From assembly GCA_030427145.1 (NCBI GenBank), contig JAUHWT010000026.1, positions 1 through 49,547 of the forward strand: DNA of 49,547 bases. Direction: 5' to 3'. This DNA is from Alphaproteobacteria bacterium (GTDB taxonomy: Bacteria > Pseudomonadota > Alphaproteobacteria > Rhodobacterales > Rhodobacteraceae). The notes beneath the pieces are model-generated. The model was not told the origin of the DNA. It searched no databases and saw nothing but the letters and a program-made list of their open reading frames with translations. The position numbers and the translations under genes are program-made. Shown in pieces: positions 16,387 through 22,146 of this stretch. How positions within the stretch are numbered: the stretch's first letter is position 1; the number at the start of each line of letters is the position of its first letter.

Positions 16387-16414
16387 GGCCGGGACGCAAT
16401 CTGTTGCCACTCCT

Positions 16415-16428
16415 TATGTTATAACATA
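16415..16428. promoter_or_regulatory. Perfect palindrome TATGTTATAACATA, Zur-box-like
   Basis: A 14-base perfect palindrome centred 49 bases upstream of the COG0523 GTPase ATG. It contains the ATGTTAT/ATAACAT half-sites typical of proteobacterial zinc-uptake-regulator (Zur) boxes, but the halves are overlapped rather than separated by the usual few central bases, so the fit is not exact. It is the only such element noticed in the window. A zinc-starvation response is the natural hypothesis, supported by the identity of the downstream gene. Confidence 0.5.
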
Positions 16429-16470
16429 CCAATACCCTCGATTTGTTTTCTATCGGGGCAGGTTAGTGTC

Positions 16471-17601
16471 ATGGCATTGACGGACGAGGACAGAAGGGTT
16501 CCGGTGACCCTGCTCACGGGGTTCCTGGGCGCAGGTAAAACGACCGTACTCAATCACCTGATCCGCGACCCGGATGCAGGCCGTATTGCGGTGATCATGA
16601 ACGAGTTCGGCGATGTCGGCCTGGATCACGACCTGATTGAGGAGGCAACGGAAGAAACCGTTCTCCTGCAGTCCGGCTGCCTGTGCTGTACGATCTTGGG
16701 TGATCTTGCAAAAACTCTTGGCGCCTTGATTGCCAAAAAAGCCGCCGGCAAAATTGAGTTCGATCGTGTGGTGATCGAGGCAAGCGGGATCTCTGATCCT
16801 GGACCAATCCTTCATACCCTCGTAGCCGACCGGCTGATCGCCGCGACCTACCGCCTGGACGGAGTGGTCACTTTGGCTGATGCGGTCAACGGTGTCCGCA
16901 CGCTCGACACCCAATCCGAAGCGCTTCAGCAGATTGCCATGGCTGACCTGATTATTTTGACCAAAACCGATCTTGTCGGCTCACGTGAGATCGCGACCTT
17001 TGAGGTGCGTCTGAACGCGATCAACAGCACCGCCCGGCACCTGCGCGCCACTCATGGACGCGTACCCCCGGGTAGTTTGTTCGGGCTCTCGGCCATGCGA
17101 AACAGCGTCAGCCAGGAGGACATACTGACGTGGCTCGGCACCTCGGCACCCAAGGCCAACCCGCTCGCCGGGTTGAGCGGTTTCGCACCGAAGCAGAAAC
17201 CGCCCAGTACCCTTTCAGTGATAAATGCACCTGAACAGAGCCGGCATGATCACCGGATAACCACGGCGTCCATTGAAGTCAAAACGCCCATTTCAGAAAG
17301 GGTGTTCGATTTCTGGCTCGACACGCTCATCGCCATGAGAGGCCCGGATATTCTGAGGATGAAGGGTATCGTCCACGTGGAGGAAATGGATTTCCCGTTC
17401 GTTTTTCACGGCGTGCAGCATATCTTCGACGCACCTGTTCCGCTGAAATCCTGGGCCGGGACCGACACCACCAGCCGCGTTGTCGTAATCGCACGCGACA
17501 TTCCGAAAGCTGATCTTGAGGAAAGCCTTCAGGTCCTGCTGATGCGCCGCGAAAATGCGAAAGGGCATATGCCCAAAGAAACTGCGCCTGCACCGACGTG
17601 A
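16471..17601 (+). CDS. COG0523/CobW-family G3E GTPase, putative zinc metallochaperone
   Basis: A 376-residue G3E GTPase with Walker A GFLGAGKTT (17-25), the metal-binding motif GCLCC (C70, C72, C73), Walker B-like VVIEASGISDPGP and the base-recognition motif ILTKTD. The C-terminal CobW_C domain (~265-365) includes RMKGIVHVEEMDFPFVFHGV. Members use GTP hydrolysis to deliver metal to client enzymes. CobW itself serves cobalamin synthesis, but no B12 genes are near, and the upstream Zur-like palindrome points to the zinc-starvation branch (ZigA/YciC/ZNG1-like). A His-rich tail found in some members is absent. It is followed by a putative carbonic anhydrase. Confidence 0.9.
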   Translation: MALTDEDRRVPVTLLTGFLGAGKTTVLNHLIRDPDAGRIAVIMNEFGDVGLDHDLIEEATEETVLLQSGCLCCTILGDLAKTLGALIAKKAAGKIEFDRVVIEASGISDPGPILHTLVADRLIAATYRLDGVVTLADAVNGVRTLDTQSEALQQIAMADLIILTKTDLVGSREIATFEVRLNAINSTARHLRATHGRVPPGSLFGLSAMRNSVSQEDILTWLGTSAPKANPLAGLSGFAPKQKPPSTLSVINAPEQSRHDHRITTASIEVKTPISERVFDFWLDTLIAMRGPDILRMKGIVHVEEMDFPFVFHGVQHIFDAPVPLKSWAGTDTTSRVVVIARDIPKADLEESLQVLLMRRENAKGHMPKETAPAPT

Positions 17602-17651
17602 GCGACACTCAACGCGTTCGGCGGAAACCCGCCATGGTCTCGTGAAAATGT

Positions 17652-17720
17652 GTGTGTCAGTCCGGTCAGTTACGGGGTATCAGCTTGGCGCGGAACCCGT
17701 TAGGGTTTTCCCGGACAGAC
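17652..17720 (+). promoter_or_regulatory. Possible structured leader upstream of the carbonic-anhydrase-like gene
   Basis: The 175-base gap between the GTPase and the next gene contains a long-range inverted repeat, GTGTCAGTCCGG (17652-17663) against CCGGACAGACAC (17709-17720), 11 of 12 pairs matching. It encloses a 45-base apical region that holds a second hairpin AACCC-gtta-GGGTT (17692-17705) and an alternative pairing ACGGG/CCCGT. It matches no riboswitch class I can recall (no B12 box). It ends 56 bases before the TTG start. It could be an RNA element, an attenuator, or an operator-type repeat. Confidence 0.4.
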
Positions 17721-17776
17721 ACCACAATCGGTATGGAACGCTTTCCAGCACCGAACCTGCGAAGGAGAATACGCCT

Positions 17777-18247
17777 TTGATATCCTCAGACGACATTGCT
17801 GCAGCCCTCAAAATCTGGGGCGACCAGAAAATCGCCATCTCAAAGGCCTTCGAAGAAGGTGGAATTGAAGCCGCGCGTGAAGCCGCCAGGGCTCATCTCG
17901 AAACGAACTACGCCTATAATCTTGGACCCGTTCTGTTCAAACCGACTCTGGCGAGCGGAGATCAGACCTTTCGTCCAACAATGGACGGAGCCCTTGCCTA
18001 CTTTTGTGGCCATTCCGACGAGTACCCGCTTGACGCGGGTTTCGCGATCAGGGGATGGCGGGCCATGGAAAGCGTGACATCGGCGGAGTTCATTGAGGGT
18101 GATATCGCCATGTGGATGGGATGGGTCAGCCTGACCGACCGGGACGGGAACGTGACCAAGGTCGACAAAAGCTTTGGCTACCGAAAGGACGACAACGGAC
18201 ACCTGCGCATCGTCCTGCACCATTCATCGCTCCCCTATCAGCCCTGA
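17777..18247 (+). CDS. Iota-class carbonic-anhydrase-like protein (SnoaL/CaMKII-AD fold, COG4337)
   Basis: A 156-residue protein starting at a TTG behind aaggaga; the longer frame from 17555 overlaps the GTPase and lacks a plausible N-terminus. An N-terminal helix pair (MISSDDIAAALKIWGDQKI) is followed by an NTF2-like cone fold with GPVLFKPTLASGDQTFRP, DAGFAIRGWRAMES, AMWMGWVSLTDRDGN and a terminal RIVLHHSSLPYQP. The closing HHSS-x-P motif (residues 148-153) with the preceding FGY strand is the hallmark of iota-carbonic anhydrases, which hydrate CO2 with Mn or without metal. Unlike many homologues it has no signal peptide, so it should be cytoplasmic. Some such proteins are mislabelled phosphoribosyl-AMP cyclohydrolase or DUF4440. 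The link to a zinc-type GTPase supports a zinc-sparing role. Confidence 0.65.
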   Translation: MISSDDIAAALKIWGDQKIAISKAFEEGGIEAAREAARAHLETNYAYNLGPVLFKPTLASGDQTFRPTMDGALAYFCGHSDEYPLDAGFAIRGWRAMESVTSAEFIEGDIAMWMGWVSLTDRDGNVTKVDKSFGYRKDDNGHLRIVLHHSSLPYQP

Positions 18248-18303: not shown

Positions 18304-21300
18304 TTAGACAAACCAGTCACCGCTGATTTCATCGCCGGAAACGCCTCTAAACAAAGCCAGTTCGACACCGCCGCCAGCGGCACTTTCGTCAAACATCAGA
18401 ACTCCGCCCTTCCTGTCTTCCGTGAAATGGAAATAGCCCTCCACTACCGGGTCGCCGTTCAGGCCAAACGCTTCCATAATGCCGGTGACATCAATGCGGT
18501 CATTTTGGTTTTCCCTGAAATCCCTGACCGTATCGAAGCCGTTTCCTACGTCCTGCCCGACAAAGACAAACGTATCCGCTCCGGACCCGCCTGACAGCTG
18601 ATCGTCGCCCCCGCCGCCGATCAGAACGTCATCTGCCCTGCCTCCACGAAGCGCGTCATCCCCGGCACCGCCATCGAGAAAACTGTTTTGATCCGAGGCC
18701 GTTAGCCGATCGTCGCCGGAGCCGGATCGAATTGTTTCGATTGAACTCCCTTTCTCGAGTTTGATCGAGGTCCTGCCGATCTTGCCACCCCGGTCGAGGT
18801 CAAAAGTCACATTGTCCTGGCAGTCCGAGAAATCAATCTCATCATTGCCGGATTGGTCGCTCAGACTGAACCTCCCGCGTCCCATAGTGCTGATCACGCC
18901 GTTTGTGTAATCATGGTAGGTGTCGCCGTGGTTGTCAGCGTCGCCAAGGGCACCGGGATCCCCCGGATTGATACCCTTGATGAAGCCCAGTTCGACGACA
19001 CCGCCCTCATCAGCACCGTTCGTGTCGAGCAGCACCTGCGCACCCCCAATGGCCGCCGTGCAGTAAAAGAGCCCGGCCGATATCGGGTCCAGTCCCGCGG
19101 CCGCACCGGTTAGAAGGCCGGACACATCGAGAACATCCCCTTCTGAAGCGTCGTAATCAAGGATGCCCATGCCGGAATTGGCGTCCACAAAGACAAACCG
19201 GTCCGCGCCCTTGCCGCCCTCCACTTCATCCGCGCCGTCACCAACGTAAATGATGTCGTCGCCCTTTCCACCTTCGAGCGTGTCGGCACCGGCACCGCCA
19301 GTTATGGTGTCGTCCCCGTCCTCTCCGGCAACCAGGTCATCGCCATCATTGCCGTAGAGAACGTCATCACCCTTGCCACCGTAAACGGAATCGTCTCCCA
19401 TCCCGCCGGAGACGGTGTCATTGCCATTATCGCCATCGACCTTGTCGTCTCCGGCGCCGCCCTCAATCAGATCCTCACCGTCATCGGAACTGATGGCGTC
19501 ATCGCCCACGCCGCCCAGCAAGGTGTCGTTTCCGTCACCACCGTCCATGCGGTCGTCGCCATCACCGCCGCTAAGCCAGTCCTCTCCATCATCTCCAGCC
19601 AGCCGGTCATTGCCGCTGCCGCCAAAAAGCGTGTCATTGCCTTCGTCGCCGCCAATTCTGTCCTTGCCCGCACCGCCTTCGACATAGTCATCGCCCTCCA
19701 GTCCATCGACTCGGTCGTTTCCGTCACCGGCCAGAATGATGTTTGAGGCTTCGTCCGCCTTGAAGCTGTCATTGCCTGAGCCGAGAGCGACCTTGTAAAA
19801 GACCGAGCCCTGGGAAATATCGAGTTGGGCCTTGATGATCCTGATAATCTTGCCGGATCCGAGGGTGATCCGCACACCCTTCGTCATATCGGACAGGTCC
19901 AGAGCCGCGTTGCCGCTGTCGTCATCGATGCCATGCCGGAGCCGTGTCGCAAAATCCGGGTCCCCATATTTGTAAACCGTATTCCCCGTGAAATCCCACG
20001 GATCGAAAGGCAGGTCCGGGTCCGGCGTCGGATCGACGGGGTCGGGATCGGCGGGATCAGGATCGGGATCGACGGGGTCAACCGGAACAAGCGGATCGCC
20101 CAGTCCAAGCACCGCCTCGATACCGACGGCATGGGAAATGCCGGAGAGAAACGCAAGCTCCACGGCCGGTCCGGTGTCCGGTGTGTAAACCACTGCCGAT
20201 CCCCCAGGCCTGTCCTCAAGTGTGATATGGCCACCGAGCGGCTCGATACCAAGAGCCTCGCACAGAACATCAACGCTTATACTGTCCCCGTCGCTGAAGG
20301 AGAAATCGGAAACCGTATCTCCGGCCTCGCGCAGGTCACGCACTGCGAAAACGTCAGCACCATCACCACCCGAGAGGGTATCGGAACCGCGTCCGCCAAT
20401 TATCATGTCGTCACCGGCACCACCGTCAATCGTGTCCTGACCGCGACCGCCGTCGATCATGTTGTCGACTTGGTTGCCCTGAACCTCATCGTCGCCCGAG
20501 CCGAGATAAACCCGCTCCACCTGGGTCCCGGATGCAACCTTAAGTGTTTTGGCGCCAATCGCGCCTGAAGCTCCCGAATTCATGTCGAAGTCGATGTCTT
20601 CCGTGACCGCCGACATGTTGACGGTATCGGTTCCACCGTCCGTGTCCTCCAGTTCCTGACGGGCGGCTTTCCAGCCGGAAACGAATTCGTCGGTATAGAC
20701 ATGCAGGGTGTCGGCAGTGTCGGCATCGCCAAGGATTGTCAGGGACCAGTCATGCAGGGTTCCCGAAGTCGTCCCCGCATGGTCCCGGATTTCCAGGGAC
20801 CACTCACCGGCGTCGGACTCACCCCAAAAAGTGTTGGCAGTAGTCTCGAAAACCAGGCCACCGGCCCCGTTCGTGCCATTATCCGGCCGCGCGATAAGAA
20901 CCGCCTCCGTGCCGGACGGCGACGTCAGTTTCACAGTCAATTCGTTTGTTTTTCCATGAGAAATATTGAGATAGACCTCAACTTTCTCGACGTGATCGAC
21001 CGTTTTCGCTGTGGTGACGGTCGTGGTGTATCTGCCGGTTGATGACAGGACATGAGAGGTGTTATTTTCGATATTCGTCGTGATCAGGTTGTCGGCCGTC
21101 TGGGTCTTTTCCCAGGTTTCCGCAAGGCGCACGGCAGCGGTTGCGTTCACGACGCCAAATCCGACCTCATCGGAGAAATGCATGCCCCCACCGTTATAGG
21201 TACCGGCCGCGTTATCCTCGAAATTATTCCTGGTTCCCGTTTTGCGCGCGGCGAGAGCGAGGATCTCCTGAACGTCGCGATAGCCGAGCTCGGGATTGGC

Positions 21301-22146
21301 CTCCAGCATCAGGGCCACAACGCCCGCAATCTGCGGTGCCGCATAGGATGTGCCAGATCCCATCTTGTAGTCGCCACCAAAGGCACCCGCAGCGCCGGAC
21401 AAATCGGCGACAGTCGCCAAGGTTGCACCGGCAGAGACCAGAACGGACGCCCCCGGAGAAGAGTAGTCGGATGCGTCGCCAAGGGAATCGACGGAGCCAA
21501 CCACAACGACCTCAACGGCATTCTTCTGGCCGTGATAGTTGGTGTTGTCGTCATCCTCCTTATAGTTGCCTGCCGAGTTGACGATCACCGTGCCAAGTCC
21601 GTCGCGACCATTTGCCACCGCGGCCTCGAACACCGCACTTCGCGCGCTAATAAAACTCGCATGCAGCGGATTGTCCGAAAAGTGCGTAGAGGCTCCCCAG
21701 GAATTGTTTATTACGTCCGCGTTTTGCCATCCATATGTGAGAGCCGCGCTGGTCGCCGCGCTGCTGAACTCACTTCCAAATCCGATGCGGAGACCGATGA
21801 GGTTTGCGTTTTCGGCAACACCATCCATTCCGTTGTTATCCCGTGCACCAAAGATCAGGGACGCAACCGCCGTTCCATGTGTGTTACTGGCACTCGCGGA
21901 CGCGTCATTGTCGTCATCCAGAAAATCCCTGTCCGCGCCGGAATCATAGGCGTGAGCCAGTTCCGCATGACCTGCCTCGAACCCGTCATCAATTACCGCT
22001 ACCGTGACACCGGATCCTGAATAATCCTGCCATGCACCGGCCACTTTTAATCCGGCTTCCGCACCATTCAAATTGTACTGGTCAAAATTCGCTTCCAGAT
22101 AGACGAAGGTCTCTTCGACCCTGCCTGCAACAGTTCCGTTTCGCAA
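18304..22146 (-). CDS. Secreted subtilisin/kexin-like serine protease with P domain and three RTX modules
   Basis: A 1280-residue protein. Residues ~45-345 are an S8 peptidase domain with catalytic D53 (VAVIDDGF), H90 (NTHGTAVASL), oxyanion N194 (VNSAGNYK) and S267 (GSGTSYAAPQ). Residues ~350-475 are a P/proprotein-convertase domain ending HDWSLTILGD. Three RTX modules follow (~505-672, ~745-1060, ~1100-1280), each with calcium-binding GGxGxDxxx nonapeptides and a serralysin-like C-terminal cap. A Pro/Asp linker (~688-715) separates the first two. There is no N-terminal signal peptide; the C-terminal RTX array implies type I secretion, though no transporter genes are nearby. Expected to be an extracellular, calcium-stabilised protease. 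The gene stands alone with a long AT-rich upstream region. Confidence 0.93.
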   Translation of the reverse strand: MRNGTVAGRVEETFVYLEANFDQYNLNGAEAGLKVAGAWQDYSGSGVTVAVIDDGFEAGHAELAHAYDSGADRDFLDDDNDASASASNTHGTAVASLIFGARDNNGMDGVAENANLIGLRIGFGSEFSSAATSAALTYGWQNADVINNSWGASTHFSDNPLHASFISARSAVFEAAVANGRDGLGTVIVNSAGNYKEDDDNTNYHGQKNAVEVVVVGSVDSLGDASDYSSPGASVLVSAGATLATVADLSGAAGAFGGDYKMGSGTSYAAPQIAGVVALMLEANPELGYRDVQEILALAARKTGTRNNFEDNAAGTYNGGGMHFSDEVGFGVVNATAAVRLAETWEKTQTADNLITTNIENNTSHVLSSTGRYTTTVTTAKTVDHVEKVEVYLNISHGKTNELTVKLTSPSGTEAVLIARPDNGTNGAGGLVFETTANTFWGESDAGEWSLEIRDHAGTTSGTLHDWSLTILGDADTADTLHVYTDEFVSGWKAARQELEDTDGGTDTVNMSAVTEDIDFDMNSGASGAIGAKTLKVASGTQVERVYLGSGDDEVQGNQVDNMIDGGRGQDTIDGGAGDDMIIGGRGSDTLSGGDGADVFAVRDLREAGDTVSDFSFSDGDSISVDVLCEALGIEPLGGHITLEDRPGGSAVVYTPDTGPAVELAFLSGISHAVGIEAVLGLGDPLVPVDPVDPDPDPADPDPVDPTPDPDLPFDPWDFTGNTVYKYGDPDFATRLRHGIDDDSGNAALDLSDMTKGVRITLGSGKIIRIIKAQLDISQGSVFYKVALGSGNDSFKADEASNIILAGDGNDRVDGLEGDDYVEGGAGKDRIGGDEGNDTLFGGSGNDRLAGDDGEDWLSGGDGDDRMDGGDGNDTLLGGVGDDAISSDDGEDLIEGGAGDDKVDGDNGNDTVSGGMGDDSVYGGKGDDVLYGNDGDDLVAGEDGDDTITGGAGADTLEGGKGDDIIYVGDGADEVEGGKGADRFVFVDANSGMGILDYDASEGDVLDVSGLLTGAAAGLDPISAGLFYCTAAIGGAQVLLDTNGADEGGVVELGFIKGINPGDPGALGDADNHGDTYHDYTNGVISTMGRGRFSLSDQSGNDEIDFSDCQDNVTFDLDRGGKIGRTSIKLEKGSSIETIRSGSGDDRLTASDQNSFLDGGAGDDALRGGRADDVLIGGGGDDQLSGGSGADTFVFVGQDVGNGFDTVRDFRENQNDRIDVTGIMEAFGLNGDPVVEGYFHFTEDRKGGVLMFDESAAGGGVELALFRGVSGDEISGDWFV
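19192..19749 (-). repeat. RTX nonapeptide array (central block of the protease)
   Basis: Coding tandem repeats specifying about 20 consecutive GGxGxDxxx-type nonapeptides (protein residues ~800-985), visible in DNA as a degenerate 27-base periodicity rich in gcc/cgtcatcgcc. Such parallel beta-rolls fold on binding calcium after secretion. Shorter blocks of the same unit occur in the first and third modules of this protein. Confidence 0.9.

Follow-up and report, generated by a model that had tools for sequence, protein, structure and literature searches.

A candidate Zur-controlled gene pair of a COG0523 GTPase and an iota-class carbonic anhydrase of the metal-free type in a Rhodobacteraceae genome

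The genes for a COG0523 GTPase and an iota-class carbonic anhydrase (CA) lie one behind the other on the (+) strand of the stretch of DNA analysed here (the window, 49,547 nucleotides), where they occupy positions 16413-18247 together with a leading Zur-type box. We consider it probable (roughly 0.77) that they form a zinc-starvation unit, in which a Zur-repressed GTPase would be made along with an iota-CA standing in for the beta-CA of the cell. The original prediction, that zinc starvation leads to the synthesis of a chaperone and a zinc-sparing CA, is largely supported by the sequence analysis: the type of CA, the box, the presence of zur and znuABC and the conservation of the cluster speak for it, but the clusters of relatives turned out to be longer. 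The features of the locus are as follows.

16413..16430, no strand: Zur-type box, two overlapping 15-bp dyads (pattern match, kept in relatives)
16471..17601, + strand: COG0523 (CobW/YjiA-like) G3E GTPase, 376 aa, predicted zinc metallochaperone (Pfam, PDB match)
16678..16689, + strand: CxCC metal motif, C70-L-C-C73 (translation)
17602..17776, + strand: intergenic gap of 175 bp (sequence)
17762..17767, + strand: ribosome binding site AAGGAG, 9 bp 5' of TTG (sequence)
17777..18247, + strand: iota-class CA, COG4337 type, 156 aa, TTG start (NF047901, 7c5v, fold, residues)

A gene on the (-) strand (18304-22146) converges on the CA gene; its 1280-aa product combines subtilase, proprotein convertase P and RTX calcium-binding repeat domains.

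Sequence, modelled fold and predicted catalytic residues identify the 156-aa protein as an iota-class CA of the metal-free COG4337 type. A sequence search of the PDB up to E 1 returned only 7c5v (all2909, E 9e-42), a cyanobacterial enzyme to which the protein is 46% identical, and 7c5x (Bn86287, E 3e-64). No Pfam family matched it, and NF047901 (metal-independent carbonic anhydrase) was its sole NCBIfam match at E <=0.001 (E 5e-52), a threshold at which all 33 related sequences matched this model as well. Because its score of 176 bits, from an alignment to positions 51-204 of the 205 in the profile, does not reach the curated cut-off of 350, the protein was filed as a COG4337-type homologue outside the NF047901 equivalog. 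An AlphaFold2 model built from 33 related sequences (pLDDT 94.3) had 7c5v as its best PDB match in Foldseek (TM 0.97/0.92, rmsd 0.9). Residues T57, Y75, H148 and S150 correspond to T106, Y124, H197 and S199 of all2909 in an ungapped alignment with the same spacing (18-73-2), and their equivalents were invariant in 106 of 106 sequences used for the CA tree. The identity as an iota-CA, predicted earlier, is thus borne out by homology to the COG4337 enzymes, by the 7c5v-like fold and by the catalytic residues, and the HHSSLP end was found as described, the full C-terminus reading HHSSLPYQP. A check for membership in some other NTF2-like family, one without the iota-CA residues, turned out negative. 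An unrelated SnoaL/NTF2 protein was rejected as a candidate; among the 50 Foldseek matches listed, structures other than iota-CAs reached TM values of 0.33-0.57 by query length.

The four residues are necessary or important in all2909, and COG4337 enzymes kept their activity when metal was removed and did not bind any of six metals, as reported in the accessible part of the work of Hirakawa et al. (2021, PMC8132391). Metal-free activity is accordingly predicted, by homology, for the window CA. In the same source 2 mM added zinc appears to lower the activity of a COG4337 enzyme; by analogy, activity without metal and an apparent loss with zinc would fit an enzyme for low zinc (PMC8132391). Most bacterial COG4337 members are predicted there to carry a signal peptide (PMC8132391), whereas none was found in the window CA, and the N-terminus of the 156-aa protein agrees with the cytoplasmic form proposed at the outset. 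Judged by eye, close relatives mostly start with a short (M/L)-(P/Q)-I-T, and several more distant CAs of the order have an apparent signal peptide.

The GTPase was predicted as a G3E GTPase with a GCLCC motif, and translation and Pfam confirmed this: Walker A, GCLCC (C70-C73) and CobW_C are all present (cobW 163 bits, CobW_C 68 bits), and 1nij was matched in the PDB (E 1e-46). It scored 121 bits against the ZigA model NF038288, below the curated cut-off of 600. The other GTPase of the genome (L005:4062-5276) scored 581 bits against this model and is called ZigA-like here, since it falls just short of the same cut-off.

The perfect palindrome predicted just upstream of the GTPase, TATGTTATAACATA, was confirmed at 16415-16428; 42 bp separate it from the ATG, it is 14 bp long, and the 4.54-Mb genome holds no second copy of it. 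It lies within two dyads on opposite strands, at 16413-16427 (+) and 16416-16430 (-), with the sequences CTTATGTTATAACAT and GGTATGTTATAACAT, each of which differs by one mismatch from the Zur-type pattern GTWAYRTWATAACAT. The form GTTA-N5-TAAC has been searched for in Caulobacter as an alpha-proteobacterial Zur site, according to the accessible part of that paper (PMC4176598), and CTTATGTTATAACAT is of this type with a single mismatch in the left half. The window box is also close to tested Paracoccus Zur sites, which include GTAATGTAATAACAT (PMC5387054, Table 7, the source being available in part). The notion of the palindrome as a Zur site has to be adjusted: the other boxes of the genome and the 15 conserved loci described below speak for it, but the dyad that fits is the 15-mer CTTATGTTATAACAT, of which the 14-mer is merely part. 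The stretch 16413-16430 is supported as a candidate Zur box of the promoter.

Counts of the motif were at or little above control and led nowhere as evidence: TATGTTATAACATA at <=2 mismatches had five places in the genome versus five for a reversed-pattern control, and strand matches to GTWAYRTWATAACAT numbered 10+10 versus 8+4. What stands out in the genome is the location of the boxes rather than their number. Six places were found within one mismatch of GTWAYRTWATAACAT, and four of them lie 5-80 bp from zinc-type genes: before the window GTPase, before the ZigA-like COG0523 gene (L005), before an AztD-like gene (L006; 355 bits, below the cut-off of 400) and between zur and znuA (L111, box GTAATGTTATAACAG). 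The box of the window and that of the ZigA-like gene have 18 consecutive bases in common, ATGTTATAACATACCAAT. The fifth place is located 0.2-0.4 kb before a DUF1826 gene that is followed by an apparent peptide/nickel ABC transporter (L008). The sixth (L007:3975-3992, equal to G000:C32:250174-250191) is about 12 bp upstream of a methyltransferase gene, which is possibly another Zur target. At L111 the gene order is zur-znuC-znuB with znuA divergent; zur was recognised as a FUR-family gene (25.4 bits versus a cut-off of 23.1), and its best NCBIfam model was Zur PRK11639, at 102 bits and hence below the cut-off of 167.

It is most improbable that the palindrome is a site of some other regulator or a chance AT-rich palindrome, a reading consistent with the count at two mismatches being no higher than control but opposed by the recurrence of the core in the zur-znuA interval and upstream of the AztD-like and ZigA-like genes, by the likeness to sites tested in Paracoccus, GTAATGTAATAACAT among them (PMC5387054, in its accessible part) and by the conserved position of the box in 15 loci.

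Conservation was followed in 390 genomes of the order, 40 of which contain iota-CA (44 matches). Neighbourhoods were read at 41 loci, namely the window and 40 stretches, mostly of 12 kb, that hold 41 matches; this covers 42 of the 44 matches, the other two being G145:C4 (a 52-residue fragment) and G174:C36. A GTPase upstream of the CA, on the same strand and within 5 kb, was found at seven of the 41 loci, and the proteins of the six other loci are 60-68% identical to that of the window. At all seven, a box with at most one mismatch precedes the GTPase by about 50-65 bp. A GTPase of this kind was missing from the remaining 34 CA loci, and a box at <=1 mismatch from 33 of the 34; at the exception, L084, it is 5.7 kb away from the CA. 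The only other genome belonging to the genus of the window genome had neither the CA nor a close GTPase. A separate search of 385 genomes gave eight that match at E <=1e-30, six of them new. Three small genomes (1.4 Mb) from one genus of the class (G418, G645 and G722; L232-L234) hold an iota-CA with 50-53% identity; its open frame is hardly long enough to include a signal peptide.

When the GTPase was taken as query, 41 of the 390 genomes matched at E <=1e-90, and the top seven by bit score were precisely the seven encoded upstream of a CA. Its promoter was read at 30 loci of these 41 matches, with orientation taken into account, and a box with at most one mismatch was present at 17 of the 30 compared with 4 of 577 background windows (Fisher 1e-21); at <=2 mismatches the figures were 21 of 30 and 8 of 577. 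No box at <=1 mismatch was found in the other 13 promoters read.

A scan of GTDB contigs for named genomes confirmed at least 574 candidates, of which 79 loci were kept. Among these 79, a GTPase at least 48% identical to that of the window was encoded upstream of the CA at 12 loci, and the box was present with at most one mismatch at 10 of the 12; L152 ends at the contig edge, and L193, which has GTPase, ZigA-like, DUF1826 and CA genes, showed no box even at two mismatches. Together the two surveys give at least 15 loci, the window included, with a box at <=1 mismatch, the GTPase and a downstream CA on the same strand; the number is the sum of 7 and 10 minus two shared contigs, and some of the loci are close relatives. 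They are the window, L059, L060, L061, L062/L154, L065/L178 and L066 from the first survey, and L150 (Mameliella), L153 (Pseudooceanicola), L156 and L167 (Celeribacter), L159 (Thalassobius), L160 (Roseovarius), L176 (Mangrovicoccus) and L182 (Pararhodobacter) from the named genomes. The neighbouring genes, whose combination varies, are HisI, oriented divergently across the box, ThrRS, a GTPase of the ZigA-like kind, and DUF1826, which follows the CA. Over the 79 loci kept from at least 574, the box at <=1 mismatch occurred at 15 of the 20 that have a zinc-cluster gene and at 0 of the 59 that have none (p 3e-12). At L157 and L206 the box is downstream of the CA and so cannot be its promoter.

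The HisI, ThrRS, ZigA-like and DUF1826 genes are all absent beside the window pair. The description of the locus as a mini-operon holds for the window genome only; relatives add these four genes. The ThrRS paralogue of the clusters looks decayed: in L066 it lacks an internal part, and in L065/L178 and L062/L154 the match is spread over two reading frames, with the GTPase and CA genes open in all three. The 175-bp gap of the window was also considered as the remains of a ThrRS gene, and this was rejected (best frame score 30, shuffle mean 31). Genes resembling zur, 34-35% identical to the Zur of the window genome, were observed in or near the CA cluster of L155 and L173 and about 2.5 kb after the CA in L150.

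The CA tree was calculated from 106 sequences, leaving out 11 identical ones and the low-scoring L096-L098 and keeping one of two L087 copies; its root is drawn at the midpoint only. A branch with support 100/99 separates 26 of the 106 sequences, the window CA among them. Zinc-linked labels apply to 21 of these 26 rows, including the window. The label is a generous one: downstream of the CA, L163 has no more than a fragment of DUF1826, L157 is weak and L158 is without the GTPase. The five other rows (L151, L161, L162, L165 and L166) showed no box at <=2 mismatches. Two zinc-linked rows, L193 and L206, stand outside the group. Over the whole tree the zinc label changes 7 times, compared with 20.9 for shuffles. 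Nearly all cytoplasmic iota-CAs that fall outside the group lack a box, and the enzyme itself is therefore not tied to zinc.

The GTPase alone might be Zur-controlled and the iota-CA be a general supplier of bicarbonate, expressed from a zinc-blind promoter of its own in the gap. We regard this as unlikely. The 175 bp between the window genes would leave room for it, and unlinked iota-CAs are found in settings without zinc genes: at L161 and L165 the CA follows fabA, near an apparent Fur-family gene and fabB and with no Zur box (the same fabA neighbourhood in the window genome, L112, has no CA), and at six loci it lies near a BicA/SulP-type transporter. These related anion transporters are located 518-836 bp after the CA start at L200, L210, L211, L220 and L225 and just upstream of the CA at L226; the one at L220 is a SulP protein with the bicarbonate transporter BicA as its best model (507 bits, cut-off 880). 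The same six neighbours lend independent support to a role of the CA in bicarbonate supply. Against a separate promoter, a consensus scan of the gap found no promoter-like or terminator-like site, and the distance from the preceding cluster gene to the CA is 26-85 bp in 8 of the 12 relatives measured (of the other four, two have intervening genes and two gave no usable value). The linkage of GTPase and CA is, moreover, kept across genera though the intervening genes differ. Since 175 bp separate the genes of the window pair, co-transcription is put forward as a presumption.

A dedicated role of the GTPase as metal chaperone of the iota-CA, loading manganese or another metal, is less credible still. 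Its attraction is that the seven GTPases with the top bit scores in the 390 genomes are exactly the seven upstream of an iota-CA, and that iota-CAs of the other type, COG4875, are manganese enzymes. The window CA, however, carries the residues of COG4337, whose enzymes bind none of the six metals and are active without metal (PMC8132391, accessible part), and 34 more of the 390 genomes encode GTPases like that of the window with no CA adjacent. As a COG4337-type CA needs no metal, the GTPase is unlikely to serve it; the window GTPase probably does not metallate the iota-CA beside it.

The preferred reading is thus that of a zinc-starvation unit under Zur. When zinc is plentiful, zinc-loaded Zur would occupy the box at 16413-16430 and keep both genes off; when zinc is low, Zur would leave the box, and the GTPase and the iota-CA would be made. 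The GTPase would presumably bring scarce zinc to chosen clients. The cytoplasmic iota-CA would hydrate CO2 through its Thr-Tyr-His-Ser pocket without metal, and may so cover the bicarbonate supply for the one beta-CA of the genome. We infer Zur binding, the zinc response, co-transcription over the 175-bp gap, activity of this CA without metal and replacement of the beta-CA. Beta-CAs are a zinc class, and the window genome has one of them and no alpha-CA, as was found in seven of seven genomes in a count that covered the alpha and beta classes. The substitution would resemble that of the zinc-dependent FolE1 by FolE2. With less confidence than for the unit itself, we lean towards the wider view that in relatives of the Rhodobacteraceae a cytoplasmic, metal-free iota-CA was recruited into the Zur regulon and replaces the bicarbonate supply of the beta-CA under zinc starvation.

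YtiB of Bacillus subtilis is a beta-class CA. It is listed as a member of the Zur regulon (PMC6103462, accessible part), as is proposed here for the iota-CA; the group of organisms and the class of CA are different. Haas et al. (2009) described nine zinc-enzyme families with Zur-linked paralogues by COG0523 genes: HisI, ThrRS, CysRS, PyrC, HemB, DksA, AmiA, QueD and the gamma-CA Cam; DUF1826 also occurs with Zur-linked COG0523 (PMC2770081, as far as the accessible text goes). The present clusters are like these in combining a Zur site and COG0523 with an alternative CA and, in relatives, with HisI, ThrRS and DUF1826 neighbours. They differ in that those of Haas et al. are from beta- and gamma-proteobacteria and hold a CA of the gamma class, for which iron was proposed as the metal (PMC2770081, same text), whereas ours are from relatives of the Rhodobacteraceae and hold an iota-class CA of a kind needing no metal. 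The Zur regulon of Paracoccus denitrificans, induced by zinc depletion, has similar 15-bp boxes at pden1338 (COG0523), aztABCD, zur/znuABC and a Ni/dipeptide ABC operon; in the accessible text, which also names the hypothetical genes pden1339 and pden1340, the term carbonic anhydrase is absent (PMC5387054). The accessible text on Zur of marine Synechococcus names neither COG4337 nor COG0523 (PMC9337993). In the literature searched, to which most subscription papers did not belong, we found no iota-CA joined to Zur. Zur-linked CAs are thus known in other classes (PMC2770081, PMC6103462, both in part), and the combination of an iota-CA with Zur was not found in that literature. The window CA shares with all2909 and Bn86287 the fold, the Thr-Tyr-His-Ser pocket and the HHSS end; unlike them, its group is Zur-linked, which would supply a physiological reason for such an enzyme (Hirakawa et al., 2021, PMC8132391, accessible part).

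In the proposed unit the stand-in CA is unrelated to the enzyme to be replaced and of a kind needing no metal at all. Several of the genera with the cluster (Roseovarius, Celeribacter and Thalassobius) live in the sea, whose surface water is poor in zinc. We know of no established reason why bacteria keep a metal-free CA. If the reading is true, the Zur-linked group of iota-CAs would give the bacterial metal-free CA a directly testable purpose, the sparing of zinc.
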